Below are positions 13,501-34,779 of a stretch of DNA of 64,000 nucleotides, in pieces. The position numbers and the translations under genes were made by a program. Positions within the stretch are counted from its first letter, which is position 1, and the number at the start of each line of letters is the position of its first letter. Below the pieces are notes generated by a model, which searched no databases, had not been told where the DNA came from, and saw only the letters and a list, made by a program, of their open reading frames with translations. The DNA comes from a virus. The stretch spans positions 62,001 to 126,000 of IMG/VR virus record IMGVR_UViG_3300045972_000807. The stretch is one strand, 5' to 3'.

Positions 13501-13673
13501 TCGTTACGCACGCCACCAAATGTGGTAACGAGCAAGTTATTTGAGGACGCGTCTTGCGTGAAGGGTGCTACGGCGGTCTCGCCGTTAAGCAGCAGGCTGG
13601 TATAGCCAAAGTAAGAGTCAAGGATAGCGGCTACAGCGGTAGCAGTACGAGCACGGCGGAGGTATCTAAACAT
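4506..13673 (-). CDS. Giant protein with about 14 LamG-type lectin repeats
   Basis: A 3055-aa protein, counted from MFRYLRRARTATAVAAILDS. The frame is open 25 codons further upstream, but the chosen ATG at 13673 matches the start of its paralogue at 4407 and follows an AAGAGA-type ribosome-binding site. About 14 tandem concanavalin A-like/LamG domains of roughly 215 aa are present, marked by F(T/C)(I/V/M)E(A/C/T/G)W(V/I/M)(Y/F/N), then W.H(V/F/I)A(V/Y/I).R, then a YISN(L/V/A)R or YIDD(F/L)R strand. Linkers repeat an LTA(V/I)(S/P)GT..L motif, sometimes followed by DPYFNQVSLLLHADG-like segments. No enzymatic domain, signal peptide or membrane segment is seen. Its place among fibre genes suggests a very long virion-surface sugar-binding protein. 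The family assignment rests on repeat pattern; ligand and position in the virion are unknown. Confidence 0.9.
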   Translation of the reverse strand: MFRYLRRARTATAVAAILDSYFGYTSLLLNGETAVAPFTQDASSNNLLVTTFGGVRNDTFSPFDAGNYSTQFNGTTDFLTLPTTATANLGTSNFTFETWVYADSTGAGSIRQIAFLDGFNNGYVGLSVQITAADQLGITLASNLTNNITAAWTTYNQWTHIAVVRNGSVFTAYVNGVSIGTYSNASAMPAWTINNIGCYNNAYYYFKGYISNLRLVSGTALYNGTFTPSSTPLTAVSGTVILACQAPQFKDNSTNNFAVTVSGTPKVQPKVPFNYTPVAASAFFNGTTDYLTTATSAAAYAFGSGSLTIEAWVFQATGASTGTIFSSVVSSDDGLIFNLNSTGTLAASGSTTGISTSVATVPRNQWVHVAVTRNASSVWNFWINGVDAGGSTTVARNFTGINGNIGSWLTNTPFPGYISNLRVVKGTAVYTGSFTPPTAALSVISGTSLLTLQNAGAANNISFLDASLNDLAISRVGIPTQGTFSPFSQDGWSNYFPGGSSNSLSFPAANVAMGLGQFCIEAYVNPLSLASTNTIIESRAYNTTGTGTWQLAIDITTGLLNLYSLQAVSIIIAGPAIQTGVWTHVAISRDSANVIRLFVNGVLVNSVVNAFNFSSVNALFVGYNSDSSNLSFNGYISNVRVVKGDPVYTASFTPSTAPLTAIPGTALLTCQSNRYLDNSVNALTCTALGTVSVQATSPFEPVAAWSALTNGGSMYFNGTTDYLTIPDALVLQFGANNFTAECWVYPTATPASGATILCKLASASSFGQFSIYFGASSIVKTVLSSNGTSFDIASGVGTIAATINTWNHVALVRSGNVFTLWVNGAVSGTVTSALALNTSPGVPFSVGASANGTGMFNGGYISNLRIVNGTSVYTGLSTPYAQLADSSVADPYFQYNSLLLHGEGSNGAQNNTILDSSSNALTIARTGTPTQGTFSPFGNSGWSNYFTGVTGTQISVADTGGVFDFGDDTTGNCVPCTIEGWFNISTYATRQAIVNHYTSAGSGWNVSVMTSGFLNVGFQGNSGNILGTTTVTLNTWHHFAISGSDYNYRVYLDGVLQGVQTAYSDFGVGTVLVIGQLASASPMSGYVSNLRMIRGTALYTKNFAVPTAPLTAVAGTVLLTCNSNSFKDNSTYNLAVTPAGGSQCVPVCPLTVSSSYSASVNGGSLYFPGSEAVSAAPSSLLNITGDFTIECWIYPQYASYPAYAGITGASSSGGSNWDLFLWNGSLRLEVAGTTAVNIYNTGVVLAPNSWHHVAATRNGNVFTLWLNGVQNATVTTSTTVGTQAFSTFVGHTGDTTNVQRFVGYISNFRFVKGTALYNSAFSVPTAPLTAVSGTAMLLNGTNSAVLDSTGKNLVTTLGTAQTSTAAVKYGSSSLAFSGAVGTYATIPSSLGYAMGTGDYTVECWIYPTAFPATWRIITRGDGNGSLIGDATGQLLYYYSGSSYIAIPAAGGVAVNTWSHVAVSRTSGVTRIFHNGVAKASVTESTAMGATDLTLGSYSGGSQNYAGYIDDFRITKGVSRYTNSFQVPSSPVAAISSTSLLLLGTNLGAQDATGKNDGISMGGTTSTAQKKFGSRSLYFGGSSSDAILYPANPTMAFGTGDFTVETWMYPQSVTNNGIIQISPTRYPANNTGLDLALVTGKVQVAVAGSVYTSVATITVGSWYHVAVQRKSGVTKLFINGVMDTGIGMLADVTNYTGQFCVVGGYYSSGYAFVGYLDDVRVTQGYARYGLAGFTLPTTALPDSSATDPYFNQVSLLLHADGTSYSAPAANNNVIVDSSYNALTVTRTGSPTQGTFSPFGNNGWSGLFNGSTDYLTTASSTGFAFSSNFTMEAWVFPTASGTSRIFSFPSNTDEFLLLPANTVNYWDGTTNFTTSLTVALNSWSHVAVCKVGTAVTVYVNGVAGATGTSTYSTTASRALVIGRFGSSSTNFFSGYISNARIVNGTAVYTTAFTPTTAPLTAVAGGTSLLTLQSNRFKDNSGNNLALTVAGTPSVQANSPLAVSAYDPAVNGGSMCFPATTDSVSITTGLDNFAFGTGNFTIEAWVYQTSASLNVVMPSAGTNTWGFLTYLNGFYWQEGGANIYSAGSVPSNQWVHLAVSRSNGVLYRFINGVLIDFNNNTYNHTALTNRIVGSSGTGYVSNVRVIKGTALYTAAFTPPTAPLAVTGNTAWLLNGVGAGIVDGTGKNDVITVSGAAIQSSVVKYGTGAISFNGTNDFLRLQTGQPHLSVGTLDFTIEAWVYPTKQSGTQAIYGSQADGTTAAGSSFCCYISATTATCDVYIGATPYVATSPNPPANQWSHVAYVRSGNTWKTYLNGSLVGSTGLPASASINAGATTYAPAIGAINAGGNLFQGYISDFRFTKGVARYTGAFTPPAAALPNASDADSYFNQVSVLLNTNVQNVTRTVAKNNVFVDSSANNFAITSGGAPSQGAFSPFSNNGWSTNFNSSQYVTTPANTAYDIVGGDFTVECWINFTAYNAMGSTANQLVGTFTGGGGWLISINGVNTVSGIAFTSYTAGTGTTVTVSGISPTQMPLGVWHHVAVVKSGASLYFYLNGINYGGAQTAVSAAAGNALAVGVYQQNLSYAGNPNWNLSNMRIVKGTAVYTTNFSVPTAKLTAISGTSFLAFQDSRIKDNSTIAALFTVSGAPSVQAKSTFAVNSVYSADTHGASLYFNGTTDYITSAASSAYAFGTGDFTIEGWVYMTSFNSTANGVFQQGTSNFPSSTVNSVAFGTTGSTAWQIYSNNGNYTTTGIAAVTPVLNQWIHFAVVKASSVIKLYINGILGLSTPDGTNYTGTFFGVGSIYGTPSTDTFPGYISNLRVIKGTAVYTSAFTPPTAQLTAVTNTQLLLLGKTSGVSDTAGNNDVVLYGNAQVSSFSKVGSGSIALNGSTDYAVLPPQQTLQLGAGDFTIEFWMYLNALPSAYTRVFSISNTSVAGQGDEGLVIEIASNNVMTSTFISGTTSYGSVTDPVAITAGAWIHWAYTRNGTTSRLFRNGVLVATGNAGTAYVNWAATWKGYIGAWLGTSRFVNGYIDDLRITKGVCRYTGNFAVPTAAFPTN

Positions 13674-13770: not shown

Positions 13771-14970
13771 TTAGTTCAGGACAGCCAGGATCGTGAAGTC
13801 AACATCAGCCAAGGTAGCGTCAGGCGTAGCGGGAGCCACGATAGACAGCTTATCGCCAACGCTAAACACAATAGCCGCTTGCGTGGACAATGCACCAGTA
13901 GCACCAGCGGCAGCAAACGTAAACGTCGCAACCGTAGAGCCATTCTTTTGCAGGTTCCACACAGCACTGGCGGTTGCAGCAGTCTTTGCAGCCACAATAG
14001 AACCTGCGAGGTTTGCAGGGATTGTGAAGGCCCGGCCAGCTGTAAAGCGCAAATCCACTTGAGACGCTGCAGGCACGCCGAAGCATGAGCCTGTAATGTC
14101 GTTAGGCAGACCAGTCCAGGTTGTAACCGAAGCTGTAGACGTTACCGAAGAGCCGTCAGCGCCAGTAGCACCGGTTGCTCCTGTAGCGCCAGTAGCACCA
14201 TTGGTCCCATTGGTACCGTTGGTTCCCGTAGCGCCGGTGGGTCCAGTTGCGCCGTTGGTTCCATTAGTACCGTTAGTACCGTTAGCTCCTGTAGGTCCGG
14301 TCGGGCCAGCTACGGTTGACGCTGCGCCTGTAGCACCAGTGGGGCCTGTTGGGCCAACAGCAGTAGAGGCGGCACCGGTTGCGCCTGTGGCACCAGTAGC
14401 TCCTGTGGCACCGGTTGAGCCTGTGGCACCCGCCGCGCCGTTAGTACCTGCAGTACCGTTGGTACCTTGGGGACCAATGGGGCCTGCTGCGCCGTCGAAG
14501 CCTTGCAGGCCACGAGCACCTGTAGGACCTGCGGCGCCGTCGGCTCCTGCGGGGCCAGTTGGGCCTGTGGCTCCGTCAGCACCTTGGGGGCCTGTAGGGC
14601 CTTGAGGACCCTGAATACCGGGAACGCCTTGTGCGCCCGCCGCGCCTGTGGGACCAGTGCTCGACTTGGCTGCAACGTCTTGCTGCAAACCATAGATGAT
14701 ACTGTCCAGCTGGAACAATGCAGCTTGTGCTGCATCTATGTCACCCAGCCGAGTGTCATAGACTGTACCCCCTGGTAGAGGAAGGTGCAGGTTCGGGGTT
14801 GAACCTATGCTCATAAATACTCCTAGTAGGAATGTGGATTTCGTTTCCGGCGCATGAGGATCAATTGCCGGGGGTAGGGGATCTGTGGTAACCGTTGGAG
14901 AGCTAACTATTTCTATACCCACATAATTTAGCGTGCTCGCAGTTACCTCGAAGCTTTTAACTTTAACCAT
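13771..14970 (-). CDS. Collagen-like tail fibre protein
   Basis: A 399-aa protein starting [18 protein letters not shown]. The frame extends upstream only through a TTG inside the preceding terminator hairpin, so the ATG at 14970 is preferred, although its Shine-Dalgarno is poor. Order of parts: an N-terminal globular region of about 105 aa ending in a short helical stretch; about 170 aa of Gly-X-Y collagen-like repeats rich in GPTG, GATG and GTNGTN; and a C-terminal beta-rich domain of about 115 aa ([15 protein letters not shown] ... [17 protein letters not shown] ... [12 protein letters not shown]) of a kind common at phage fibre tips. Collagen-like repeats in phage fibres form trimeric stalks. 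It is probably a trimeric fibre with a receptor-binding or structural tip. It has its own terminator on each side. Confidence 0.85.
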
Positions 14971-15138: not shown

Positions 15139-17160
15139 TTAACGAAAATAGCTCACCAAGATCACATCGCCGACGAGCGGCGCTGTGTTCAAGGTGACTC
15201 CTGTTCCAGAAATTGTGTAGTCGTTGTCGCTGCCCATGTTTTGCAACACGCCGTTGACGTACAGTTGTTCTGTACCAGCGTGAGGTGTATTGGCCAGGAC
15301 GAACACAGCGTTGGTGCCATTGACGGTACCTGCTGGGATTTCGCGGACAACAACCTTGTCGTAGGTCAGATCGTTGGGCTGATCTTGTTCCAGCACATAC
15401 ACACGAGCAGCCAAGGCGGCTTCTGCGGCAGTAGCGCGGGCCAGTTCAGCACCTTCAGCAGCTGTAGCACGAGTCACTTCGGCGGCTACTGCATTGGTGT
15501 TCACCAATTCAGCGGCTGTGGCGCGCGAGGCTTCTGCGGCGATGGCTGTAGTCAGAGCGGACTCGGCAGCGGTAGCGCGAGCAGCTTCGTTCGACACCGA
15601 GGTGATGATCGGGCTGGTAGCTGAGGAGATAGCTGTGTCGCGGGCGGCGGCTTCGGCAGCAATCGCAGCTGTGTAGGCTGTGGTGATTGCAGCGTCGGCT
15701 GACGTACGGGCAGAAGCTTCAGCAGTAACGGCAGTGTTCCACAGTGCGTTGTCTGCGGCGATGGCCGTAGTGTAGGCAGTGGTGATCGAACCTTCGGCAG
15801 CGGTTGCACGGGTTGTTTCAGCACCAATGCTGGTACCCAGGGCAGCTTCAGCGGCCAGTGCGCGAGCCAGTTCAGTTGCATCGGCAGCAGCGAAGGCTGT
15901 GGAGATGGAACCTTCAGCGGCTGTAGCACGAGTCACTTCAGCAGCAACGGCTGTAGTCAGTGTGCCTTCGGCGGCAGTAGCACGTGAGGCTTCAGCTGCA
16001 ACAGCCGCGGTGAACGCGGTAGTAACAGCGGCGTCGCCAGCGATGCGTGCTGTAGCTTCGGAGTCGATGTTGCCTTGCAACACGCCTTCGGCGGCAGTTG
16101 CACGAGTCACTTCACCGGCCAGGTTGGTGGTCAGTGTGCCTTCAGCAGCAGTTGCACGGGTAACTTCAGCGGAAACAGCCGAGGTCAGAACGCCTTCAGC
16201 AGCAGTAGCGCGGGATGCTTCAGCAGCAACAGCGGCAATGCGGGCATTGGCTTCGGACGTGTCAGCGTTGGTGCGGGCCAGAACTTCGGCAGCCAGTGCA
16301 TCGGCAGCAGCTGTAACAGCAGCAGCTTCGGCAGCGGTAGCGCGAGTTGTTTCAGCGTCGGTGTAGGCAGCGGCAGCAGCAGCGATGGCCGTTTCAGCAG
16401 CAGTAGCACGTGTGACTTCAGTTGCCAGGTTTGCAGCAGTAGCCGAGGTACCAGCGAGTGCGGTGATGTTGGCTTGCAGCGTAGCTTCAGCAGCTGTAGC
16501 ACGAGTCACTTCGGCGCTGTCAGCGGACTGATAGGCAGAGGTGATGGCGCTTTCAGCGGCTTGGGCACGTGTGGACTCGGTCGTGATGGCCGTGGCGTTG
16601 TTGCCGTTGGCGGTGGACAGCGCAGCTTCAGCGGCCGTAGCGCGTGTAACTTCAGCAGCGATGCTGGTGTTCAGAGCGGATTCGGCAGCAGTTGCACGGG
16701 TGATTTCAGAGGCCAGGGCATCGGCAGATGAAGTGCTTGCAACGATCGCGGAGATCTGTGATTGCAAACCGGCTTCAGCTGTAGACGCACGCGATGCTTC
16801 AGCGGCCAGTGCTGTGTCCAGGGCCACGTCTGCTGTGAACAGAGAAGTAGCTGCGCCCAGGTAGTTGCTGTTGGTGGGGGCAACGTAAGCACCACCGGTG
16901 GTCAGGCCAGCGCCGGTCAGGGTGCCAGTGATCAGGCTTTGGATGGCAGTTGTAATGCTGCTGTCCGATGCTTCCCAAGCTTGGGTAGCGGCGTTGATGG
17001 AAGCTACGGTAGCCTCATCAGTTGCCAAGGTCGTGAAGATGTTCGCAATGTTGGTGCTGAGACCAGACAGGTATGCCTGGAACGCTGCATCAATTGCGGA
17101 CTGTGGAACGGAAGCAGTGCGTATCTGCGAGCCATTGATTGTGGTAGGGGTAGCTGCCAT
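15139..17160 (-). CDS. Alanine-rich coiled-coil tail fibre
   Basis: A 673-aa protein with start MAATPTTINGSQIRTASVPQ behind a strong CGGAGA ribosome-binding site. After about 110 aa of N-terminal sequence, most of the protein is built of imperfect repeats of about 18 aa (AAEVTRATAAEGTL-like), which predict a long trimeric coiled coil. The last 75 aa carry a typical phage fibre C-terminal motif: IPAGTVNGTNAVFVLANTP, a YVNGVLQ turn, DYTISGTGVTL and GDVILVSY. This end closely resembles the C-terminus of the protein at 17229-17918. It is probably an extended rod-like fibre with a small terminal knob. The antisense frames over this repeat are open only because of its biased composition. Confidence 0.85.
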   Translation of the reverse strand: MAATPTTINGSQIRTASVPQSAIDAAFQAYLSGLSTNIANIFTTLATDEATVASINAATQAWEASDSSITTAIQSLITGTLTGAGLTTGGAYVAPTNSNYLGAATSLFTADVALDTALAAEASRASTAEAGLQSQISAIVASTSSADALASEITRATAAESALNTSIAAEVTRATAAEAALSTANGNNATAITTESTRAQAAESAITSAYQSADSAEVTRATAAEATLQANITALAGTSATAANLATEVTRATAAETAIAAAAAAYTDAETTRATAAEAAAVTAAADALAAEVLARTNADTSEANARIAAVAAEASRATAAEGVLTSAVSAEVTRATAAEGTLTTNLAGEVTRATAAEGVLQGNIDSEATARIAGDAAVTTAFTAAVAAEASRATAAEGTLTTAVAAEVTRATAAEGSISTAFAAADATELARALAAEAALGTSIGAETTRATAAEGSITTAYTTAIAADNALWNTAVTAEASARTSADAAITTAYTAAIAAEAAARDTAISSATSPIITSVSNEAARATAAESALTTAIAAEASRATAAELVNTNAVAAEVTRATAAEGAELARATAAEAALAARVYVLEQDQPNDLTYDKVVVREIPAGTVNGTNAVFVLANTPHAGTEQLYVNGVLQNMGSDNDYTISGTGVTLNTAPLVGDVILVSYFR

Positions 17161-17228: not shown

Positions 17229-17918
17229 TCAATACGTGTACTCCACTATAACATTGTCAAAGGAATCCGGGTTAAAGTAATTATTTTGCCAGCCGATTGT
17301 TGCCCCAGCTATGAGGAAGTCTCCGCCGTAAGTGTACCGTATACCGTTTATCCAGATGACCACGCTAGGTGGGTCCAATGGGGTGTGAAGCAATTGCTTA
17401 TTACTAAGCCCTGTTTCACTTATTGCTATAAGCTCCTGAGTTTTAGTTCCGGTGGCTGGCGTTATTGTGCCAGCCACCGCATCCAAAATGTTACGCTCAT
17501 CAACAGCAAAGGCCTCAGCCGTATTGCCTGTGACAAGCTCGGTGTACACTGCGTCTGAGGGCAGCATACCTAGTTTGAGGTTTGGGGTTACCTGAGCCAA
17601 TAGACAAGCTGTTGAGTTGGTTACCGCGTCAACCTCGTCACCTGGTTCGTCCCATAAAATTGTACCACTTAAGGTACTCTGGTCTATGGGGGTAGCAGCC
17701 GTTAAGACGTATCTATGGAAGATACCTGGTATCTGCATGAACGTATTAACGTCGCTTGCAGGTATGTAAAGAACAAACCCAGGTGTAACGTCGTAGGCAC
17801 CGTTACCGGTAGCATCAGCTTGGTTAGAGAACTGGGCTGATTCAAATGTGTATTCTCCAGCGTTTCCAGTAGGCGTAAAGGCGCTGACTGTTAAAGCTGC
17901 ATTTATTGGACGCGCCAT
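17229..17918 (-). CDS. RPINA-type fibre partner protein (paralogue A)
   Basis: A 229-aa protein starting MARPINAALTVSAFTPTGNA. The ATG at 17918 has a better-spaced AAAGGTTG ribosome-binding site than the ATG 9 nt upstream and matches the start of the paralogue at 21310-22152. The first 150 aa are clearly homologous to that paralogue (GNAGEY.F, NQADATGNGA.D, MHRY/FHRY.LT, LSGT.LWDEP, LLAQ(V/A)TPN). The C-terminal 45 aa instead match the fibre-tip motif of the 673-aa coiled-coil protein (INGIRYTYGGDFLIAGATIG). It begins 12 nt after the stop of the fibre at 17931-19022, so the two are probably co-translated. Its function is unknown: it could be a fibre tip, adaptor or dedicated assembly factor. 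Confidence 0.78.
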   Translation of the reverse strand: MARPINAALTVSAFTPTGNAGEYTFESAQFSNQADATGNGAYDVTPGFVLYIPASDVNTFMQIPGIFHRYVLTAATPIDQSTLSGTILWDEPGDEVDAVTNSTACLLAQVTPNLKLGMLPSDAVYTELVTGNTAEAFAVDERNILDAVAGTITPATGTKTQELIAISETGLSNKQLLHTPLDPPSVVIWINGIRYTYGGDFLIAGATIGWQNNYFNPDSFDNVIVEYTY

Positions 17919-17930
17919 TACATTCAACCT

Positions 17931-19022
17931 TTAGAAGGACATTAGGAATACGATACCTGTCGTGCTTGCGGGCAAGGCGCCATACTGGAACATATTCCAG
18001 CTTGTACCACTTACCACAGCTATCGTGTTGCCCACAGCGCTAAGGCTAACACCATCTTGGCGAACCTGTTGGACTGGAACTATAGCGTTGTCAAAGCTAC
18101 TCCATGCGCCAGTGGGCTGGACTGGTATTGTCAAATTGTACGAGGTACCTGTGCGAGTGCCAGTTGCCAAGTGAATACGCATACCCAGCAACGTTATGTT
18201 GCTAACACCAGCAGGTGCGGTTAAGATACCTGCATTGATGTTGTTAACACCAGAGGCATTATGGGCAAAGGTGTAGCCCATAGAGTACGCTGCAGCTGTA
18301 CCCGAAGAACCACCAGTACCGCTGGAAGTAATTGTGAAAGTATTGGTAGTTACCGCGGTGATTAGACCGTTCTGAAACTCCACGTTAGCGTTGTGGACGA
18401 TAACCATCTCGCCGACAGAGTGACCGTGACCGTTGTCAGTGATAACCAGGTTTGTGCTGGTTTGTGCCCACGAAAGGCCGGTGGTAACGGGGGCGCTAGT
18501 GGCAACCCACACGGATTGACCTGTTGTGGTGTTGACTGGATAGCGGCAGGTTGTATCGTAAACCTTAGATACGCCACCGCCAGTGCCGCCAGATGCGCTA
18601 ATAGTGCCGTCACCTGCGATAGTAACGCCGGTACCCTGCTTTACGCCGCCCAGTACAGATGAGCTTGCAACAGGCAAGGTGTACGCTGAGGGGATAGAGG
18701 GTGTACCTGACAGATCGCTATAGGCGCCGGATAAGGCAACCGCAGCCAGGCTGGAGGTATTGGCTTTACCAGAAATTGCCGTAGCAACCTGCGCGGCTGT
18801 CTGGTAGCCAGCGTCATTGGTAAAGCCTGAGATAACAGTCGGTACTACGACCGCTGTAGTTTGAACGGAGTTGTCAGAAAACTTAACGCCTGAAGAGCCA
18901 GCAATTAGCTGTGCAGCTTTGAACGAGCCGGGCGTTGACAGCGCATTGGCACCTTCGCGCAATAGCTCTGTGTCAGTGCCAAAGTGTATGTGATTTCTCG
19001 CGTTGTCAATTATTATGGACAT
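17931..19022 (-). CDS. Short tail fibre with FTNDAGY repeat and swappable C-terminal domain
   Basis: A 363-aa protein starting MSIIIDNARNHIHFGTDTEL, chosen because AAGGGCG lies at proper spacing; the longer frame lacks a good site. Parts in order: an N-terminal piece with HFGTDTELLREGANALS and FSDNSVQTTA; one VISGFTNDAGYQTAAQVATA repeat and YSDLSGTPSIP, as in the 727-aa fibre; a VLGGVKQGTGVTIAGDGTIS segment typical of fibre necks; and a C-terminal domain of about 195 aa nearly the same as that of the 1246-aa collagen-like fibre ([50 protein letters not shown].(S/T)LSAVGNTIA). It is followed immediately by the RPINA-type partner gene. Confidence 0.82.
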   Translation of the reverse strand: MSIIIDNARNHIHFGTDTELLREGANALSTPGSFKAAQLIAGSSGVKFSDNSVQTTAVVVPTVISGFTNDAGYQTAAQVATAISGKANTSSLAAVALSGAYSDLSGTPSIPSAYTLPVASSSVLGGVKQGTGVTIAGDGTISASGGTGGGVSKVYDTTCRYPVNTTTGQSVWVATSAPVTTGLSWAQTSTNLVITDNGHGHSVGEMVIVHNANVEFQNGLITAVTTNTFTITSSGTGGSSGTAAAYSMGYTFAHNASGVNNINAGILTAPAGVSNITLLGMRIHLATGTRTGTSYNLTIPVQPTGAWSSFDNAIVPVQQVRQDGVSLSAVGNTIAVVSGTSWNMFQYGALPASTTGIVFLMSF

Positions 19023-19053
19023 TGCTTGGTCGCCCTTCAAATCTTTAATAGAA

Positions 19054-19082
19054 GGGCCGGTGAATAAAATAAACACCGGCCC
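19054..19082 (-). terminator. Hairpin terminator of the 727-aa fibre gene
   Basis: A perfect 9-bp stem GGGCCGGTG / CACCGGCCC with an 11-nt A/T loop, 22 nt after the stop codon of the gene at 19105-21288 and followed by TTCTATTAAAG on the minus strand. Confidence 0.65.
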
Positions 19083-19104
19083 CGACGTAACCCACTAGCG
19101 TTGA

Positions 19105-21288
19105 TTAGACGATAGTGGTAGTTTTGATGCCAACAACCCAGGTGATCGAAGTTGCAGCAGCGCCTTGCACAGTGATGGCCAGACCGCTACCATCGGTAGA
19201 CGCATTTGCATCCCACGAGGTGTCTTCCAGGGCGATGATGTCTTTCAACACACTGCCGCCGACGATGCTGATAGTGCCTGCAACGTTCTTGATAGCGCCT
19301 TCGAGTGTGAAAGCACCAACCAATGCGCCGCCAGCTGTCTTGCCAACTACGTCAGCAGTGAACTGCACCACGGCGCCTGAGGCCACGGCCACGGTCAGAG
19401 CAGAAGTTGCAGTAGCGTCGGTTGTAGGCACTGTAGCCACGGCAGTACGAGTACCAGAGCCGCCGGCCAGCAGAGTTGCACCAGTCACGCTCAGGACACC
19501 AGCACCGTCAACAGCCAGACCAGAACCTACCTTCACACCGCCCAGCACCGAGGCAGTAGCCACGGGCACAGCAGTCAGGTAACCTGCGTCGTTGGTGAAC
19601 GCTGACACCACGGTAGGTACGGTCGGAATGGTGGGAGCACCAGACAGATCAGCGTATGCACCAGTGGTTGCCACAGTAGCCAGTGAGGCTGTAGTAGCGT
19701 AGGCGGCCAGGGCGGAGGTCAGGACGTAGCTGGACAGCGAAGCGGTCGTGGCGTACGAAGACAGAGCCGAGGTCAGAGCGTAGGGAGCCAGTGCGGTAGC
19801 AACGTTGCCAGCAGTTTGATAACCAGCGTCGTTGGTGAACGAAGACACGGTTGTGGGGACTGTCGGGATCGTTGGGGTACCGGTCAGGTCAGCGTATGAG
19901 CCTGACAGAGCAACAGCAGCCAAGCTGGAAGTGTCAGCCTTGCCAGCGATTGCGGTAGACACATTGGCAGCGGTCTGGTAGCCAGCGTCGTTGGTGAACA
20001 CGGACACCAGAGTCGGGATCGTCGGGATCGTCGGTGCGCCAATCAAAGCACTGTAAGCGCCGGAGAACGCAACAGCAGCCAGGTCAGCAGTGTTTGCCTT
20101 GAAGGCAACAGCAGTGGTCAGCGCAGCAGCTGCAGACTCGTCAGCAGCCAGGGCCGTTGCGATTTCAGCCAGTGTATCCAGTGCCGTAGGAGCAGCGCCT
20201 ACAACAGCAGCGATTGCGGCGGTGACTTGAGCAGCAGTCTGGTAGGTGGAGTCATTGGTGAACGCGCTAACGTTGGTAGGCACGGTCGGGATTGTGGGCT
20301 TGTTAATCAGGTCAGAGTACGAACCTGAAGTAGCCACGGTAGCCAGGGCGGTAGCGTCCACCTTGCCAGCGATTGCTGTAGCAACGTTTGCTGCGGTTTG
20401 GTAACCGGAGTCATTGGTGAAAGCAGAAACCACGGTAGGAACCGTGGGGATTGTGGGCAGGCCCAACAGGTCGGAGTACTGGCCAGATGTAGCCACTGTA
20501 GCCAGTGACGACGTTGTAGCGTAAGCGCCCAGGGACACCACAGTAGCGTAGGCGGCCAACGAAGCGTTGGTAGCGTATGCCGACAGGGAAGACGTTGTGG
20601 CGTAAGCCGACAGGGAAGCGATCGTTGCGTAGTCACCCAGAGCAGTAACCACTTGAGCGCTGGTCTGATAGCCGGCGTCGTTGGTGAATGCGCTCACCAC
20701 TGTAGGTACGGTCGGGATCGAAGGCTTGTTGCTCAGGTCGGTGTAGGAACCTGTAGTTGCCACTGTAGCCAATGCCGAGCTGAGAGCGTATCCAGCGTCA
20801 TTGGTGAAAGCAGAAACCACGGTAGGAACCGTGGGGATCGAAGGCTTGCCGGTCAGGTCAGAGTACACGCCGGAGAACGCAACAGGTGCCAGAGCAGAGG
20901 CGTCAACCTTGCCAGCAACAGACGTTGTCAGCGCAGCAGCAGCGGATTCATCGGCAGCCAGGGCAGCAGCGATTTCAGCCAGAGTGTCCAGTGCTGTAGG
21001 AGCAGCGCCTACAACAGCAGCAATCGCTGCGTCCACAGTGCTTGTCACATTGGCAGCAGTTTGGTAGCCAACGTCATTGGCGAAGTCACTGACCTTGGTC
21101 GGCACAGTAACGACGGTGGGAGTAACGAGATCCAAGCCACCCGAAGATGTATTGAACGCGAGCACTTGGCCGTTTTGCGCGGACGTGGTGTCCGGAAAAA
21201 CGATAGTACCAACGCCAGATGCGGGGCCACGCAGTACCAAGCCACCGGCTGTGCCAGCATTGTCAAGAACGATACCTTTGATTGTCAT
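19105..21288 (-). CDS. Long tail fibre with FTNDAGY/YSDLTGKP repeats
   Basis: A 727-aa protein starting MTIKGIVLDNAGTAGGLVLR after a CGGAGTC ribosome-binding site. At least eight repeats centre on (V/T)VSAFTND(A/S)GYQT followed by A..VA.A..GK(V/A)D, alternating with YSDL.(G/N)KP(S/T)IPTVPT segments. There is also a duplicated AIAAVVGAAPTALDTLAEIA block and a run of ASL.AYATT repeats. Such repeats are widespread in long tail fibres. The C-terminus has a VLGGVKVGSGLAVDGAGVLS neck and a beta-rich tip (EDTSWDANAS ... AATSITW) whose motif also ends the RPINA-type protein at 21310-22152. No chaperone or protease domain is visible. Confidence 0.85.
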   Translation of the reverse strand: MTIKGIVLDNAGTAGGLVLRGPASGVGTIVFPDTTSAQNGQVLAFNTSSGGLDLVTPTVVTVPTKVSDFANDVGYQTAANVTSTVDAAIAAVVGAAPTALDTLAEIAAALAADESAAAALTTSVAGKVDASALAPVAFSGVYSDLTGKPSIPTVPTVVSAFTNDAGYALSSALATVATTGSYTDLSNKPSIPTVPTVVSAFTNDAGYQTSAQVVTALGDYATIASLSAYATTSSLSAYATNASLAAYATVVSLGAYATTSSLATVATSGQYSDLLGLPTIPTVPTVVSAFTNDSGYQTAANVATAIAGKVDATALATVATSGSYSDLINKPTIPTVPTNVSAFTNDSTYQTAAQVTAAIAAVVGAAPTALDTLAEIATALAADESAAAALTTAVAFKANTADLAAVAFSGAYSALIGAPTIPTIPTLVSVFTNDAGYQTAANVSTAIAGKADTSSLAAVALSGSYADLTGTPTIPTVPTTVSSFTNDAGYQTAGNVATALAPYALTSALSSYATTASLSSYVLTSALAAYATTASLATVATTGAYADLSGAPTIPTVPTVVSAFTNDAGYLTAVPVATASVLGGVKVGSGLAVDGAGVLSVTGATLLAGGSGTRTAVATVPTTDATATSALTVAVASGAVVQFTADVVGKTAGGALVGAFTLEGAIKNVAGTISIVGGSVLKDIIALEDTSWDANASTDGSGLAITVQGAAATSITWVVGIKTTTIV

Positions 21289-21309
21289 ATAGACTCCGAG
21301 TTAAGGCAG

Positions 21310-22152
21310 TTAAGCCGTGAAAATTGTCAGCGTAGTTGATGCTGACCAGTTGAGGGAAGTTGCGGAAGATCCAGTTACCTGAATATCGAGAGCGCCTGTA
21401 GCTGCATTGGCTGAGGCCTGCGCGTCCCAGCTCGTATTAGAGCGCGCCACTATAGTTGTTAGGGTGTTGCCCATAAGGGCTAGTGTATTCAAATTGTCAT
21501 CCATGTAGAGCGTACCTTCGATGATAAAGATACAACGCTGATTAGGCGCGCCTGCTCTGTGGCCTACTACTATGGTGCGGAAAACAGCAGTGCTCAAACT
21601 GGGCAAAGTCAAATCTTGAACGGGACCCAGGGTAAGCGGTGTTGCGTTGGTTGTGGAACCTGAGACGTCTATAGTCGTAGTTACAAGACCCCCGCCCCCG
21701 CCACCCAGGCCAATGTTGTCAGTAACATCCCTAGAGTCCAACACCATAGCCTGGATGTCGGAACCGCTAGGCAAGTTGGCATACACAGCGTTGCTGGGAA
21801 CAAGGCTAAGCCCATGGTTGGGCGTAGCCTGCGCTAGCATTACATAGGCGCCACTAGACGGAATGTCTACCTCAGCAGTAGGCTCATCCCACAGCATAGT
21901 TCCGCTCAAGAGACTGGCACCTGTTGGGCTTACTGAGGTAAGCTTGTATCGGTGCATGGCTCCTGATACAGGACTGCCAGTGTTAACGTCTGTGGGCTGG
22001 ACATAGACTTTGCAGCCTATGGTAATGTCCGCCGCGCCGTTGCCTGTGGCATCCGCTTGGTTGTCAAAGTTAGCGTCAGTGAAGGAATACTCGCCTGCGT
22101 TCCCAGTACCTACGAACGAACTAACGAATAGGGTTGCGTTTATTGGCCGCAT
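21310..22152 (-). CDS. RPINA-type fibre partner protein (paralogue B)
   Basis: A 280-aa protein starting MRPINATLFVSSFVGTGNAG behind AAGGATG. The N-terminal 150 aa are homologous to the protein at 17229-17918, but the C-terminal 100 aa (GTLYMDDNLNTLALMGNTL, SNTSWDAQAS, SATSLNW) match the tip of the 727-aa fibre encoded next. It begins 18 nt after the stop of the 1246-aa collagen-like fibre. The same order of a fibre with the HGHSVG C-terminal domain followed by an RPINA-type gene occurs at 17229-19022. The family is not recognised; the module pattern argues for a structural partner of the preceding fibre rather than an enzyme. Confidence 0.8.
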   Translation of the reverse strand: MRPINATLFVSSFVGTGNAGEYSFTDANFDNQADATGNGAADITIGCKVYVQPTDVNTGSPVSGAMHRYKLTSVSPTGASLLSGTMLWDEPTAEVDIPSSGAYVMLAQATPNHGLSLVPSNAVYANLPSGSDIQAMVLDSRDVTDNIGLGGGGGGLVTTTIDVSGSTTNATPLTLGPVQDLTLPSLSTAVFRTIVVGHRAGAPNQRCIFIIEGTLYMDDNLNTLALMGNTLTTIVARSNTSWDAQASANAATGALDIQVTGSSATSLNWSASTTLTIFTA

Positions 22153-22170
22153 TTATAGCATCCTTACTGA

Positions 22171-25100
22171 TTAGAAGTTAGCCAGGATAACGATGCCAGT
22201 TGCGGACGCTGGAAGCGCCCCAAACTGGAACGCCGCGAAGCTACCACTGATTGATGTTGCAATGGTGTTACCCACTGCGCTGAGAGTAGTACCGTCCTGC
22301 CGAATTTGCTGGACTGGAATCCATACGTCATCCATGCTTGTGTCTCCACCAGCACCGTTAAGGATGCCAGCCGGGACATTCAGCGTGTAGGTTGTACCTG
22401 TCCGTGTGCCTGTTGCCAGGTGAATACGGACACCCATGAGCTGAATGTCTGCACCTGCAGTAGCTGGGGCGCTTATTGTGCCTCCGCTAATAGAACCAGA
22501 AGGTCCGTTATGTGCAAACGTGAAGCCCATCGTGTAGTTACAGCTAAAGCCCATTGCGGCTCCTGCACCGCTACTGGTAACCGTAAACGTATTTGCAGTA
22601 ACCGAGGTAATCAACGCTACTTGGTAATCCACATTGGCATTACGGATGATAGCCAGATCGCCTACCGAGTGACCGTGAGCGTTGTAGGTCAGAGTAAGTG
22701 CTGTACCTACCTGAGCCCACTGCACACCCACACGAATCTGAGAAGCACTGGTAACTGAGACAGCAAGTCCCGTAGTGGTCAGAACCTGATAGCGCGACAC
22801 AGTATTGTGGATAACGCCGATCATTGCTCCGCCAGGTCCCTGTGCTCCGTCTGCTCCAGTAGCACCGGTTGCACCTGTGGGGCCTGCTACGGTTGAGGCC
22901 GCACCAGTAGCACCGGTTGGTCCTGCTGGGCCAGTAGAGCCTGTTGGACCTGCTGGACCTGCTGGTCCAGGTACTGTAGACGCCGCGCCTGTTGGGCCGT
23001 TTGCACCAGTAGGCCCAACAGGACCTGCTACGGTTGAAGCGGCACCTTGGGGTCCTGTAGCACCTGTGGGTCCTGCTACACCTTGAGGTCCAGGTACTGT
23101 AGAGTTTGCACCTTGGGGTCCAGTAGGACCTGCAGGGCCGGGTACTGTTGAGGTTGGGCCTGTGGCTCCCGTTGGACCTACGGTACCTTGGGCTCCCGTA
23201 GGACCTGTGGGACCTGCTGACCCTTGAAGACCTGCGGGTCCAGTGGGTCCAACGATAGCGCCTACGTCTACCCAGGCTGAGCCACTCCAAGTGTACAGGT
23301 TACCGTCAGCTGCAACCACGTATGAGTCGTTAGTTGCCTGTCCGGTAGAAGGCAAACTAGCTACAGTAGCTACAGTTCCCTTCATGTTTATGCCCACACC
23401 CGCAGGGCCTTGGGCGCCAGTGGGTCCTGCTACGCCAGTTGTACCTGTTGCTCCGTTTGCGCCTGTGGGTCCAGCGGGGCCCGCAGAACCAGTATTGCCA
23501 GTTGGGCCTGTAGGTCCTGCGACACCAGTAGTTCCCTGGATACCCTGAGAACCTGTGGGGCCAACCGCTCCAGTGCTACCGGTTGCACCTGTAGGACCAG
23601 CTACGCCAGCTGAGCCTTGGGCACCGGTGGGGCCTGCAGGGCCAGCTGGGCCGGCAGAACCTGTAGGGCCAGCAACCAAGCTAGCAGCACCTGTCGCGCC
23701 TGTTGGTCCAGCGGGGCCAGTAGCACCGGAGGGACCTGCGACACCAGTAGTACCCTGGATACCTTGGGCGCCAGTAGCACCCGTCGGGCCTACAATAGCG
23801 CCTACGTCTGTCCAAGCTGAGCCTGTCCACGAGTACAGGTGTCCGTTAGCCGACACCACGTAGGCGTCGTTAACAGCTGAGCCTGTTGCTGGAAGAGCAC
23901 CAACCGTCGCTACAGTACCTTTCAGGTTTATGCCAATGCCAGCTATACCTTGTGAGCCTGTGGCACCAGTGGGGCCAGCAACGCCGGACACACCTTGTGA
24001 GCCTGTAGCACCAGTAGGTCCGGTTGAGCCTGTGGGTCCTGCTACAGTGGACGCCGCGCCAGTAGCACCTGTGGGGCCGGTCGGGCCAGTGTTACCAATA
24101 GGTCCTTGAGCACCTTGAGCTCCAGCAGGTCCTTGCGAACCAGACGTGCCTGTTGCACCTGTAGCACCGTTTGCACCTGTGAAGCCGATAGGGCCTACAG
24201 CGCCTTGAGGACCTGTTGCGCCTACAGAGCCTGTAGCGCCTGTTGGTCCAGCAACGCCAGTGGTTCCCTGCGCGCCAGTAGCTCCCGTTGGGCCGGCTAT
24301 ACCTTGTGCGCCAGTAGCTCCAGCAACGCCTTGAATACCTTGGGCGCCGCCGTTACCTTGCAGACCCTGAATGCCTTGTGAGCCGGCAGGGCCTGTAGAA
24401 CCTGTGGGGCCTGCAACGCCTTGCGAACCAGCAGGTCCCTGAGCGCCAGTAGGGCCAACCGAACCTTGGGGACCCTGGATTAGGCCAACGTCAATCCAGC
24501 CAGCTCCATTCCACGAGTACAGGTGTCCGTTAGCGTTAACGACATACGCATCGCTTTGGGTAGCCGTTGTGGGCAGGTTAGCTGTTGTGGCTACGTTACC
24601 CTTCAGGTTGATACCAATACCTGCAGAACCTTGGATACCTTGTGCTCCAGTAGCGCCTGTTGGTCCAGCAACGCCAGTGGTTCCCTGCGCGCCAGTAGCG
24701 CCAGTAGGCCCAACGTTACCTTGGATACCTTGGATACCTTGAGTACCTTGTGTACCCATAGGGCCCAGGCCACCAACAGGTCCAGTTGCGCCAGTGGGGC
24801 CTGTAGGTCCCTGAGAGCCAGTGTTTCCTTGAATACCTTGGAGGCCTTGCAAGCCTTGTGGGCCTTGATTACCCTGAGGTCCAACCACAGTAGACGCCGC
24901 GCCGGTTGCACCAGTAGCTCCCTTAGGACCTGTGGCACCTGCAACTCCAGGCACACCTTGAGGACCTTCAACGGTACTGTCAGCGCCTTGAGGACCTTGA
25001 GGACCTGTTGGTCCCATTAGGCCTTCGCTGCCTGGAGCACCAGTGGGTCCAACAGTACCGGGCTGCATTGGCACCACGAGCGACTCAGCAAAGAACGTCG

Positions 25101-25911
25101 CAATGTCGCCGTTCTCGAACAGGTTGTTCCACGGTGCTGTGGTCTTGAAGTGGTAGCAGTCAGTAACCACGCCGTCAACACGATACAGGACGGTACCAAC
25201 CATCGAGCATGTGCGAGCGATACCGGCATTTGCACCGGTACGTGGAGTGACAAAGAATGAGATTGTGCGATCTACCTTGGACAGCGCGCCTAGGCTAGCA
25301 CTGTTTACAGGTATGTAGATGCTGGTGAAGTCTGACGCTGCGATAGTCAAATCGCCCAGGTTGTAGGAACCTGCGAGACGCCAAGAGCTACCGTCGGACA
25401 CTGCGATCAGGGACTTGCCTGAGATCACATAGGTATTTGTAATACCTGTTTCCTGAGTGTACGTCGTAGAGTCCGCCGCGTTAGGCAGTGCGTCAACAGA
25501 CGGCAGGACGTTCAGGTTACCGGCCGCAGCTGAGAGGGCCACCGGGGAGAACGGTGCGCGACCGCCTGCCTGCATAGGCAAGATACAAGCAACAGAAACG
25601 TTGTCTGTAATAGGAATGTCGGAATCGGACGAACCCAGTGCGACGCAGACGCCGTTAAAGTACAGTCCGATCTCGCCCATTACGATAGCTGGGCTACCGA
25701 GGCCGTGAGAGATTGAAACGGAAAAGGACGGAGAGCCTCCGTCCATTCCTGTCAAGGGCGCTTGTCCGTAATAGACTTTAGCTCCGTGAATGTCAGTGTC
25801 GTTACTTGTGGCTATATAGCCACTGGCATTGCCGACCGCGAAGTCCAGGCTGCTTGGCACGCCCGTAGTAGCGAACAACTGATAGCCGTAATTGGTTAGT
25901 GCGAAAAGCAT
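22171..25911 (-). CDS. Very long collagen-like tail fibre with tail-collar N-terminus
   Basis: A 1246-aa protein. The N-terminal 290 aa resemble phage tail-collar fibre N-termini ([48 protein letters not shown]) and are paralogous to the proteins at 35564-38017, 38357-40093 and 61081-63045; this end probably docks to the virion. About 700 aa of Gly-X-Y repeats follow, interrupted three times by a beta-rich insert of about 45 aa (GINLKG.VAT, a DAYVV..(N/D)G.LY(S/T)W core and W.DVG). The C-terminal 200 aa are the [20 protein letters not shown] domain shared with the 363-aa fibre at 17931-19022. It is likely a trimeric rod with a receptor-binding tip. Start at 25911 follows AAAGGCACG. Confidence 0.88.
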
Positions 25912-25982: not shown

Positions 25983-28799
25983 TCAGAACTCTATTGGTGG
26001 AGGTGGAGTTAGATAACTTATTGTTCCGTTAGTTTTATAGGCATAGATTGAAGTACCGTCCCAGTAACAGGGTCCTGCAGGTGGAGAATCCGAACCGTGG
26101 GACATAGGGAACCAAGATAGACCGTCATCATAGGAATAGGCTCCCAAGGTTAGGCCGGTAACAACAAAGCACTTATTCCCAAATCCCAGTCCATTGTAGG
26201 TTGTAAGAGCCTTGGTTTGCGACCAGGTGTTAGACGGGGTATAGTAGGTGTGAATACCTGCACTGCTAACAGCTACGCCGTTAACTTCTCCTAGACAGAA
26301 GTCAAACGTTGTTCCGCCCTGTACCGTATTCGGACCCGAAGTCCAGTTTGCACCGTCGTCAAAAGAAATTATGCAAGAGTCATAAGCATAGATGTAGTTG
26401 TAATCCATGAACCAGGTGTTGTTACCCAGGTACCGTGTGTTACCGCTTCCACCCCAGACGCCGTTACCTAATGGGCTATTAGCTGGAACAGGAAGAAGGT
26501 TCCAGGTTACACCGCCGTCGGTCGACCTATGGGCACCCATAGTGTTTATTACCTGGCGGCCCCAGCTGTCTCCCGAAACCAACACGTTAGTAGTAGGATT
26601 ATAGTCTATGGAGTTACGCAATGGCGTAGAGTAGTTAGACCCAAGGACCTTGCTGGTCCAGATAAAGCCATCTGTGGAGTAGTACATCGTGCCTTGGGAC
26701 TTTACGTTGTACTGCCCAGAGTTGGTGATAGCCCAGCTTGTTACCTCATAGCCGAAATATCTTGGCTCCCATGTTTTACCGTCGTCAGTAGACTTTAAGG
26801 CGCATATAGCGTTACCAGAGTACATAACCCCGGCAGCGTCCCTACGCATACCAACCATGTGAACAGGTTGAAGCATAGCGTCGGTGTGCCAAGTTACGGC
26901 GTCATCTGACCAAACTCTAAAGCTTGTAGCAACTTGAAAAGAAAGATGGAACCTGCCTTGCGGAGTACAGGTTATGAAGTAGGGAATGCCTGAGCAAGGT
27001 ACCTTAACGGTTGTCCAGGTTACACCCATGTCGTCGGTGTACGCTATGCTTGTCCCAAGCTGAGCCGCACCGGCTGCGACTAAACCTACTACTCGGCTCC
27101 CATTGCTGGCAAAATCTGAAAATATAGCCAATGGGGTTACACGCTTTGTCCACGTTAAGCCGTCAGGAGAGACAATGACCTCCTTGGTGTTAGTGGTCAT
27201 TATGTAATAGGTACCTGTCCAGATGTGGTACCCGCCAGCCGCGCCTACCCCGGTTGGGAACGTAACTTTATTCCAGTTAACTCCGTCTGCGGAATACACA
27301 ATATGGCCAGCACCGGTGGCAAGGAACTGGCTACCGTTCCAGGATAGTCCCCGGAAGTTAGCTGCGGCTGCGGGAGTCTTGGCTACGTTCTTTATCCAGG
27401 TAAACCCACCGTCTTGTGAACAGTCAATAAACCCGGAGTTTCCGCCCAAAACTACCGTACCACCCACACCTGCACCACAGTAAACCTGGACCGCCGTAAA
27501 GCTACTGCCAGTAAGAGTTGGCGATGATACCGTAGTCTGAACATCGTAGTACCAGTCCAGACCGTTATAGGTCATGAATAGCTTGGTAGCAGTGGTAAAC
27601 AAGGCAGTGAAGGCTCCACAATCCCAAAGCTTATATGTCGCAGGAGCACTGAATACTGTGGTACCGCAATTCCACCAGGTGTCTCCTCCATTATTGGAGT
27701 AGAACATTTTGTTGGATATGTTGTAGGCAAATAGACCTAGACTTGTTGCCGTTACGCTGTGCAGATTAGAGCAGGACCCTGTAGTTAGGTCAAGTGCTGG
27801 AGTGGACTTGGTTATTTCCCAGTTTAGACCTTGGTCGGGAGAACGGCCAAAATAATAAGACTTGGCGTGACCAAAAATCCAGTTTCCGTCTGAGCAGTAC
27901 ATGGTGTATGCTTCAGGATACTTGGATAAGTCTCTTGTCCAGTTTGCACCGTCAGGAGAAGTGAATCGCTTCCCGCCGAAGTTAACTACAAACTGCGAAC
28001 CTGTCCAGCAGCCTGGCGTAGGCTGTGAAGGACCTGTGCCATCGCCACCCGCCGCTACGAGACCGGTAGAGGCCCCGGTCCAAGTAACTCCGCCGTCCTG
28101 AGTTGAAAACCAGTACCCACCGGAGATGGTCATAAATACGGCTTGCCCAGCATTGTTGGTAAGAAATCCAGCTACGGCATTCCCAACGTTAAAGATACCT
28201 GCGTAGGCAAAGTTCTTTAGGACCCATGTCGTCCCATTAAAGGTCAAGGTGTCCAGTATGTACGAGGTACCTGACCTGCCGTAGCCGTAAAAGGCAAATA
28301 CTGAACCAGCGCCGCACCAAGCCACGCCGGTATAGGTTCGAGTGCCGTACTGGTTATTTATACCAGTGAAGCCAATAAAGTCTGTGGTTGCGTACGACTT
28401 GAAATAACCCATAAACATATAGGTATTACCATCGTAGGCCACACCCAACAATTGGGTATTGGCTGTGTCCGGCATAACTATTCTTTTCCATGTAACCGTA
28501 TCTGTGGAGTACATGGCAAACTGGGTTGTAGTAGTGCCGTCGCTTTCGCTACCTACAACTATCCAACCCCAACCCACCCAGAGAACCTGAGTTAGCATAG
28601 AACCCAAGGTGGCTATTGTGGGTATAGCGTCCCAGGTTAATCCGTCGGAGGACAAGCGCACGGTACCATGGTTACCCACAGCTAAGCCGTACCCGGGTCC
28701 CCAAGCCATGCTCTTTATTAACTCTAGAGAATGCTTTTGGTACCACACCGGGGGATTACGAGATTTGCCGTAGTAAGGTTCTACAAGTAGCTTGGACAT
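25983..28799 (-). CDS. Asp-box (BNR-like) beta-propeller virion protein
   Basis: A 938-aa protein starting MSKLLVEPYYGKSRNPPVWY. The chosen ATG at 28799 overlaps the preceding stop (TAATG) behind GAGAAC. At least 13 Asp-box signatures of S-x-D-x-G-x-T/N-W type run through it: LSSDGLTW, TSPDGANW, YSNNGGDTWW, CSQDGGFTW, YSADGVNW, VSPDGLTW, YTDDMGVTW, KSTDDGKTW, STDGGVTW, SFDDGANW, YSYDDGLSW. Asp boxes are the structural turns of sialidase/BNR-type propellers. I see no convincing sialidase catalytic Arg triad or Tyr, so a non-enzymatic, glycan-binding or structural propeller is more likely. It probably forms one or two large propellers and is co-transcribed with the 132-aa and 1489-aa genes upstream. 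Confidence 0.82.
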   Translation of the reverse strand: MSKLLVEPYYGKSRNPPVWYQKHSLELIKSMAWGPGYGLAVGNHGTVRLSSDGLTWDAIPTIATLGSMLTQVLWVGWGWIVVGSESDGTTTTQFAMYSTDTVTWKRIVMPDTANTQLLGVAYDGNTYMFMGYFKSYATTDFIGFTGINNQYGTRTYTGVAWCGAGSVFAFYGYGRSGTSYILDTLTFNGTTWVLKNFAYAGIFNVGNAVAGFLTNNAGQAVFMTISGGYWFSTQDGGVTWTGASTGLVAAGGDGTGPSQPTPGCWTGSQFVVNFGGKRFTSPDGANWTRDLSKYPEAYTMYCSDGNWIFGHAKSYYFGRSPDQGLNWEITKSTPALDLTTGSCSNLHSVTATSLGLFAYNISNKMFYSNNGGDTWWNCGTTVFSAPATYKLWDCGAFTALFTTATKLFMTYNGLDWYYDVQTTVSSPTLTGSSFTAVQVYCGAGVGGTVVLGGNSGFIDCSQDGGFTWIKNVAKTPAAAANFRGLSWNGSQFLATGAGHIVYSADGVNWNKVTFPTGVGAAGGYHIWTGTYYIMTTNTKEVIVSPDGLTWTKRVTPLAIFSDFASNGSRVVGLVAAGAAQLGTSIAYTDDMGVTWTTVKVPCSGIPYFITCTPQGRFHLSFQVATSFRVWSDDAVTWHTDAMLQPVHMVGMRRDAAGVMYSGNAICALKSTDDGKTWEPRYFGYEVTSWAITNSGQYNVKSQGTMYYSTDGFIWTSKVLGSNYSTPLRNSIDYNPTTNVLVSGDSWGRQVINTMGAHRSTDGGVTWNLLPVPANSPLGNGVWGGSGNTRYLGNNTWFMDYNYIYAYDSCIISFDDGANWTSGPNTVQGGTTFDFCLGEVNGVAVSSAGIHTYYTPSNTWSQTKALTTYNGLGFGNKCFVVTGLTLGAYSYDDGLSWFPMSHGSDSPPAGPCYWDGTSIYAYKTNGTISYLTPPPPIEF

Positions 28800-29197
28800 T
28801 AGGTTCTCACATAAAGGGTAACGCAATAGGCGTCGGACGGTTGCCCCATAACGTTTACAATCCGGTACCCGAAGGCGTCAGGTCCCCGGTAAGTTATCTT
28901 AGGCGTGTATGCCAACCCTAACTGATTTTCTGAGATAGTAGCAATGCCGTTGGCTGGCTGGGACAGAATCTCGATTGTACACCGGTACCCTCCCTGAAAC
29001 TGCCAAGCCGTATGATTGTCTGCCTTTGATATTAGCTTAGGGTCTATGGGGTAAGCCCCTTGAATAAGCCATTTGCTAAGGTCTATTACGAAAGGCCTTA
29101 AAACCTGGGTTGCTGGCGTGTGGACCAAAATGTCCTCGGCCACTGGTATGAAGTGCCTAAAGAAAGGCTGGGTAAGTTTTATGGAATGTCCTGCCAT
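28799..29197 (-). CDS. Small Ig-like virion protein
   Basis: A 132-aa protein, start MAGHSIKLTQPFFRHFIPVA behind AAGGCGG, 4 nt after the stop of the 1489-aa gene. Its last 60 aa read like a single bacterial Ig-like beta sandwich (IEILSQPANGIATI ... YTPKITYRGPDAFGYRIVN ... YCVTLYV), the P.GPD.F.Y pattern being typical of cadherin/Big-type domains. The first 70 aa are not recognised. Its stop overlaps the start of the propeller gene by one base, pointing to translational coupling. It may be a connector between the large adhesins. Confidence 0.7.
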   Translation of the reverse strand: MAGHSIKLTQPFFRHFIPVAEDILVHTPATQVLRPFVIDLSKWLIQGAYPIDPKLISKADNHTAWQFQGGYRCTIEILSQPANGIATISENQLGLAYTPKITYRGPDAFGYRIVNVMGQPSDAYCVTLYVRT

Positions 29198-33735: not shown

Positions 33736-34779
33736 TTAGGCCATCGGGCCGCCAGCAGTCAGCATCAACAGACGCATACCGGTGTTGTTAGCGTCAGTTG
33801 CGCTCATCGCCTTGTAGGTGCGAGGAGTGGACTCGCCGTACACTGTCAAAGGTACGTCCGTGTAACCGGCAACCACGTTGGCACTGGTGTACGCGATCAT
33901 GTCCAGTTCGCTGGTGTACGCGTAACGCTGCGTATTCAAGCCGTTCGGGAAAGTGATAACGTACTTGTTATTTTCCGAGATGGCCACTTGCGGCTGGACG
34001 TTGATGATAGCTGCGCTGTTGATGGTGTCCTTGGAGGCAGACACGCCGACGGTAGGTTTCAGGATGTCGTTCTCGCGAACAACCAGCTTGAAAACGTCGC
34101 CGTTCATTCCAAACGTAGCAAACAAAGGCGCGTGACCTGTGATTACTGGGGCGCCAGTGAGGTGGTCCACCGGACGCTGGATGGAAATCCAGGAGAACAT
34201 GCCGCCGATATTGTCCGAAGCATCTTCCCACACGAACAGCGTAAAGCCGTTAGCGCCAACCGACAGACGGTAGGTCATCGGGTAGTTACCTGCTGCGTTG
34301 GTGCCGTTCAGCACAGAGGCTATGATACGCTGCTTGCGCGTAATGAAGCTCATAGCAACGTTGTCTACCGTTGTTGTGGTAACCACGTGACCCAGGCCGT
34401 TGATGTGGCCGGAAGGCAGCGGATACTGTGTCGAGCCACCGTCTTGAACGTCCACGGGAGTAACGCCGCCGGTCGATGGCAACTGAAGCGAAGTACCTAC
34501 AAAAATGTCTCCAACCTGCGGAGTGCTACCCGACTGCAGAGTTTGGTGGCCTGTGCAATCGAACATGATGTTCCAGGGCTGCTGGGTGTAGGCTGGGTCA
34601 ACCGTAGCCGAGGCAGTCAAGGTAACTGCAAACGGGGTGTACGGGGTTGAACCGGAGGGTGCGGGAAGCGGCGAGGTGGGGTACACCAAGGTGAAGCCGT
34701 TAGCCAAAAGGTCAGTTACGACTTGGTAAAACAGGCCAGGTACGTCGGTATAGCCAGAGCGTTGAACGGTAAAAGACAT
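33736..34779 (-). CDS. Virion structural protein of unknown role
   Basis: A 347-aa protein, start MSFTVQRSGYTDVPGLFYQV behind a strong TTGGAGAT ribosome-binding site. It is a soluble, beta-rich sequence with no signal peptide or membrane helix. Notable stretches are GFTLVYPTSPLPAPSGSTPY, RYAYTSELDMIAYTSANVVA and a C-terminal TGMRLLMLTAGGPMA. The composition and neighbours fit a structural protein of the tail or baseplate, possibly a hub to which fibres attach, but no named family is recognised. It has its own terminator, separating it from the 1489-aa gene, and may be expressed at a different level from the adhesins. Confidence 0.72.
   Translation of the reverse strand: MSFTVQRSGYTDVPGLFYQVVTDLLANGFTLVYPTSPLPAPSGSTPYTPFAVTLTASATVDPAYTQQPWNIMFDCTGHQTLQSGSTPQVGDIFVGTSLQLPSTGGVTPVDVQDGGSTQYPLPSGHINGLGHVVTTTTVDNVAMSFITRKQRIIASVLNGTNAAGNYPMTYRLSVGANGFTLFVWEDASDNIGGMFSWISIQRPVDHLTGAPVITGHAPLFATFGMNGDVFKLVVRENDILKPTVGVSASKDTINSAAIINVQPQVAISENNKYVITFPNGLNTQRYAYTSELDMIAYTSANVVAGYTDVPLTVYGESTPRTYKAMSATDANNTGMRLLMLTAGGPMA

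Follow-up and report, generated by a model that had tools for sequence, protein, structure and literature searches.

Organization of the two fibre cassettes

The window, a 64,000-nt stretch of DNA corresponding to positions 62001–126000 of the 171,756-bp virus record IMGVR_UViG_3300045972_000807, carries two cassettes, R1 and R2, each composed of a fibre gene (A1 or A2) and, directly downstream, a gene coding for an RPINA-type protein (B1 or B2). All four open reading frames are open on the minus strand (Table 1), and the whole record contains exactly two copies of each of the two domains that define the cassettes. The first of these, called HGHSVG, ends the fibres and is 53% identical in A1 and A2 over ca. 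200 amino acids (BLASTP, E 3e-50), while the second, the RPINA domain, begins B1 and B2 and is 52% identical over 147 amino acids (BLASTP, E 2e-49). The first-pass annotation described both fibres as sharing a C-terminal domain and being followed by an RPINA-type gene at a distance below 20 nt, and this is confirmed, the gaps being of 18 nt in A1–B1 (22153–22170) and 12 nt in A2–B2 (17919–17930). The former holds a Shine–Dalgarno-like AAGGA stretch, which gives B1 a ribosome-binding-like sequence of its own; this and the gaps argue that A and B are separate polypeptides. The stalks of the two fibres are unrelated, as had also been proposed, with collagen-like Gly-X-Y repeats in A1 and SGAYSDLSG-type repeats in A2.

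Table 1. Features of the R1 and R2 cassettes and of the neighbouring fibre genes (window coordinates)
Feature	Coordinates	Strand	Basis or remark
Fibre A1, 1246 aa, putative proximal segment, with an N-terminal domain and a collagen-like stalk before the terminal HGHSVG domain	22171..25911	-	PF01391 collagen, E 1e-67
A1 N-terminal ca. 285 aa, proposed virion-anchoring domain	25057..25911	-	homology to N-terminus of 35564-38017 (46%, E 6e-71); anchoring presumed
A1 HGHSVG C-terminal domain, ca. 200 aa, proposed socket	22171..22785	-	SH3-like phage beta-barrel likeness in first half
B1, 280 aa, protein of RPINA type, putative distal segment/adhesin	21310..22152	-	
B1 RPINA N-terminal domain, proposed plug	21712..22152	-	
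B1 C-terminal module, ca. 130 aa	21310..21702	-	homologous to tip of 727-aa fibre (E 5e-10)
727-aa fibre between the cassettes	19105..21288	-	C-terminus (19105-19503) related to B1 C-module; stalk repeats related to the short stalk of A2
Fibre A2, 363 aa, putative proximal segment, non-collagen stalk	17931..19022	-	
A2 HGHSVG C-terminal domain	17931..18536	-	
B2, 229 aa, RPINA protein	17229..17918	-	
B2 RPINA N-terminal domain	17475..17918	-	
B2 C-terminal module, ca. 80 aa	17229..17474	-	homologous to C-module of the L037/L041 RPINA protein (E 8e-10)
673-aa fibre, downstream of B2	15139..17160	-	relative follows RPINA gene in L041

The C-terminal modules of B1 and B2 differ from each other, and the homology between the B1 module and the 727-aa fibre's tip indicates that the RPINA proteins, too, are fibre proteins of modular build. 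The 673-aa fibre downstream of B2 has a relative (52% over 121 aa, E 3e-29) which also follows the RPINA gene of contig L041, so that a three-gene order is shared by the window and that contig. A kinship of the B2 C-module with the tip of the 673-aa fibre was considered but found no support, the match comprising 13 residues only.

Elsewhere in the window, a tail-collar-type fibre gene (PF12571; 61081–63045) lies directly upstream of a gene with a weak GP38-adhesin match (PF05268, below cut-off; 63073–63957), and the two are a possible gp37–gp38-like pair of the same phage. A giant protein of ca. 3,055 aa (4506–13673) contains many 'FNGTTDYLT...FTIEAWVY...' units, LamG/concanavalin-like by eye. 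The C-terminal ca. 120 aa of the product of 13771–14970 are also present in two fibre genes from Burkholderia phage BcepSaruman, and a 939-aa protein (25983–28802) has weak BNR repeats, of a type similar to those found downstream of the L041 pair. A eukaryotic-type topoisomerase I catalytic core (PF01028, E 7e-17) is encoded by 57406–59238, adjoining fibre/lysis genes.

Relatives of the cassettes in other phages

RPINA scans with single sequences and with a two-row profile gave no match, nor did a DNA pattern on HRY...LWDE, and these early null results, taken alone, would have suggested a private gene family. The family was opened by contig L017, retrieved with a looser degenerate DNA pattern (LWDE...EVD), in which 15 nt separate the end of the HGHSVG domain from an RPINA open reading frame coding for a protein of 1,743 aa with a collagen-like stalk. 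A three-row RPINA profile found in IMG/VR the near-identical L034 and L035 as well as L036 and L037, each with HGHSVG directly upstream, and a seven-row HGHSVG profile found 22 loci there. The profile scans of IMG/VR gave 15 non-redundant HGHSVG copies, the window's two included; most RPINA loci sit on incomplete contigs. RPINA membership of L056 and L060 was assigned by profile–profile comparison (prob 91, E 1e-6) and through their relative L059, which is HMM-detected. An RPINA match in L061, a Clostridiales genome, was discarded as spurious, being an internal 28-residue match within an unrelated protein. In 50,697 phage records (INPHARED), tblastn gave no match to representatives of every RPINA subfamily or to a divergent HGHSVG domain, and A2 matched phage records via its stalk only. 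The predicted structures of both domains, made from three-row alignments, have pLDDT values of 37 and 48, too low for the models to be of use.

An RPINA-family domain opens the gene directly downstream in 14 of the 15 non-redundant HGHSVG copies, at a distance of 8–21 nt or, in the L049–L053 group, ca. 57 nt. As some of the loci had been found through RPINA, the two search directions were counted separately: RPINA adjoins HGHSVG in eight of the nine loci found by HGHSVG alone (L003, L039, L040, L042, L049, L055, L056, L058, and L059), and HGHSVG lies directly upstream in each of the four new loci to which RPINA alone had led (L017, L034, L036, and L037). In whole contigs the HGHSVG to RPINA ratio is 1:1 for 14 records and 1:0 for one, while the record of the window has 2:2; a second RPINA row listed for one record (G011) is the same gene. 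The positions of the domains are fixed as well, HGHSVG always terminating A (usually ...F-stop) and RPINA always beginning B. The exception is L003/L047, where HGHSVG has no adjoining RPINA gene and is followed by a terminator-like sequence. In L003 the domain (8001–8591) lies at the end of a collagen-like fibre, the next gene is of another kind, and a search of the whole 292-kb contig revealed no RPINA gene; HGHSVG can therefore end a fibre without a partner. No RPINA gene without an HGHSVG partner was found among the loci and contigs searched. The HGHSVG and RPINA domains thus form a conserved two-gene fibre module, in agreement with the earlier proposal that they work as a pair.

The RPINA proteins

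The B proteins vary in size from 224 to at least 2,599 aa, the short ones being those of R1, R2, L040, and L041. RPINA makes up the N-terminal module in a second fibre protein and is often followed by a stalk of collagen-like type and then by a C-terminal module that is exchangeable; the stalk is absent in B1 and B2 and exceeds 1,000 residues by far elsewhere. The C-modules of the B proteins from R1, L039, L040, L056, and L060 match the C-termini of other virion proteins. Such an architecture, with RPINA heading long collagen-stalked fibres that bear C-modules of their own, fits a joint between fibre segments better than a cap or chaperone, and it would make the HGHSVG domain the end of a proximal segment and not the true tip. 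Of the first-pass proposal that RPINA contributes to a tip complex, a trimer cap or a dedicated assembly partner, the pairing is retained, while the picture of a small cap does not agree with the length of these fibres. The remark that no family of this kind has been described stands for RPINA, as searches of Pfam, PDB sequences and a phage GenBank collection gave no match, and the sole match in PHROGs, phrog_17105, of unknown function, was marginal (E 3e-4, two of 15 members).

The HGHSVG domain and the upstream fibres

The A proteins have various N-termini. That of A1 is common to the protein encoded by 35564–38017, and the A protein of L058 begins with Mtd_N (E 3e-11), while the stalks are collagen-like in most loci. 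In PHROG, the products of both 33736–34779 and 35564–38017 are labelled 'tail sheath'; owing to the N-terminus that the latter has in common with the 1246-aa fibre, this label looks like a misannotation of fibre or baseplate proteins.

In the L056/L059/L060 group, the first half of HGHSVG resembles the endosialidase beta-barrel PF12195 (E 2e-6 to 8e-5), with a best score of 28.1 bits against the Pfam cut-off of 35 (three of 16 members); the core members, including A1 and A2, gave no match to PF12195. The same comparison also gave a weak E1_FCCH match. Small barrels of this sort are common in phage structural proteins, and the likeness is therefore not diagnostic.

Genomic surroundings and covariation

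No further protein similarity was detected in 45 of the 78 locus pairs. The other 33 include collagen shadow reading frames and a few real shared neighbours (L056–L059, L048–L054, and L041–window); since shadow frames of collagen repeats inflate the flanking similarity, only the 45 similarity-free pairs were counted. The carriers are diverse, as indicated by the presence of T4-type portals in three of the 14 records and by GC contents from 36 to 57%. With the surroundings largely unshared and T4-type portals confined to these three records, general synteny does not explain the pairing of the two domains.

The subfamilies match, in that a divergent HGHSVG domain has a divergent RPINA domain as its partner (hhalign, E 9e-16 and 1e-6). 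Moreover, the divergence of HGHSVG is correlated with that of RPINA (Mantel r 0.84, p 1e-4), also within the core group (r 0.54, p 0.006). Such a correlation is expected of partners, yet shared ancestry alone could yield the same.

A proposed joint between fibre segments

Across the loci the two genes are adjacent and keep their order, the domains hold fixed terminal positions in variable surroundings, and the B products belong to the fibre proteins. Conservation is found at the facing ends, with the A N-termini, the stalks and the B C-termini all varying, and for this reason A and B are probably successive segments of one multi-part tail fibre, the C-terminus of A docking end to end with the N-terminus of B. 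Gene A would give rise to the proximal segment, made up of a virion anchor at the N-terminus, a stalk that is collagen-like in most cases, and HGHSVG at the extreme C-terminus; the collagen repeats suggest that this segment is a trimer. Gene B would code for the distal segment or adhesin, with RPINA at its very beginning, a stalk that varies greatly in length and an exchangeable C-module, which probably meets the host and may bind its receptor. HGHSVG and RPINA would then be in physical contact at the junction of the two segments, A being the presumed proximal and B the presumed distal part.

The same arrangement could be produced by a pair of independent fibres that attach to the virion separately, through the N-terminus of each, and are co-inherited as an adjacent cassette without contact. 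Neighbouring phage fibre genes are often swapped in blocks, and L003 retains A without B; nevertheless, such a cassette would not keep specifically the C-terminus of A conserved, and conservation restricted to the facing ends makes this explanation unlikely. Another reading takes HGHSVG for a receptor (carbohydrate)-binding tip and B for an accessory adhesin of the same or another fibre. It would agree with the L003 fibre ending in HGHSVG without a partner and with the resemblance of divergent members to PF12195 (E 2e-6, below the Pfam cut-off), but a likeness to so common a type of barrel is not diagnostic, and the RPINA N-terminus that follows all but one of the 15 copies would be left unexplained, so that we regard this reading as improbable. 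The role of an assembly chaperone or cap, TFA-like and aiding the trimerization and register of the upstream fibre, seems improbable for RPINA as well. The downstream position and short gap are typical of fibre/chaperone pairs, e.g., gp24–gp25 of Pam3 (PMC9608196), and the B proteins of R1, R2, L040, and L041 are short, but many others, unlike chaperones, are fibres of great length that bear a collagen-like stalk and a C-module of fibre type, and RPINA has no Pfam match.

Going beyond the end-to-end docking of A and B, we propose tentatively, and with less than even confidence, that HGHSVG and RPINA may constitute an undescribed, horizontally spread plug-and-socket joint by which unrelated large phages extend or re-tip their fibres, anchors and tips being freely swapped provided that the joint halves are kept. 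The two cassettes of one virion might be kept apart by subfamily-specific matching. Detailed knowledge of how multi-part phage fibres are joined comes from very few phages. A matched pair of end domains that is recognizable in sequence and occurs in diverse uncultivated large phages, while being absent from the annotated phage records searched, would allow distal fibre segments and likely receptor-binding modules to be spotted in metagenomic phages, and the pair offers a compact model of how fibres are joined that lends itself to direct testing.

Comparison with known fibre systems

In T4, the C-terminus of gp34 joins the gp35/gp36 distal half-fibre (PMC3004832, PMC5537660). The HGHSVG/RPINA module resembles this system in that the fibre genes adjoin and the C-terminus of the proximal trimer would face the proximal end of the distal segment, contact being presumed here. 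The two differ in that A and B have no gp35-like hinge gene between them and the stalks are mostly collagen-like instead of beta-helical. Profiles of 16 and 9 sequences compared with PDB sequences gave no match to gp34 or another fibre at E ≤ 10; the PDB chains should include the gp34 C-terminal crystal structure, while gp36 may be without a solved chain, in which case the comparison of RPINA with gp36 rests on Pfam.

In T2, the N-terminus of gp38 docks on gp37, and a swap of the first 113 gp38 residues restored compatibility (PMC12892980). Like the gp37–gp38 pairs of T2, S16, and PP01 (PMC12892980), the module combines an N-terminal domain of the downstream protein with the C-terminal end of the upstream one and a variable distal part, and similar docking is presumed. 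These pairs are the closest analogue of the short forms in R1 and R2, and the gp38-like position, directly downstream of a fibre gene, is common to all RPINA loci. Nevertheless, the RPINA proteins P0001 and P0002 gave no match to the GP38 family PF05268, glycine-rich PGII repeats are a feature of gp38, and B, unlike gp38, is in some loci a fibre that exceeds 1,000 aa by far.

With the TFA-type chaperones (Pam3 gp25 and Mu TFA; PMC9608196) the short B proteins share the location of a small gene directly after a fibre gene, but in most loci B bears a fibre stalk and a C-terminal module, and RPINA has no Pfam match to TFA/chaperone families, its marginal PHROG match being of unknown function. Likeness to the endosialidase beta-barrel concerns the first half of HGHSVG in the L056/L059/L060 group only, the second ca. 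120 aa being unrelated. Although neither domain is a sequence relative of the T4 and T2/S16 joints, the HGHSVG/RPINA pair most likely works in the way they do.
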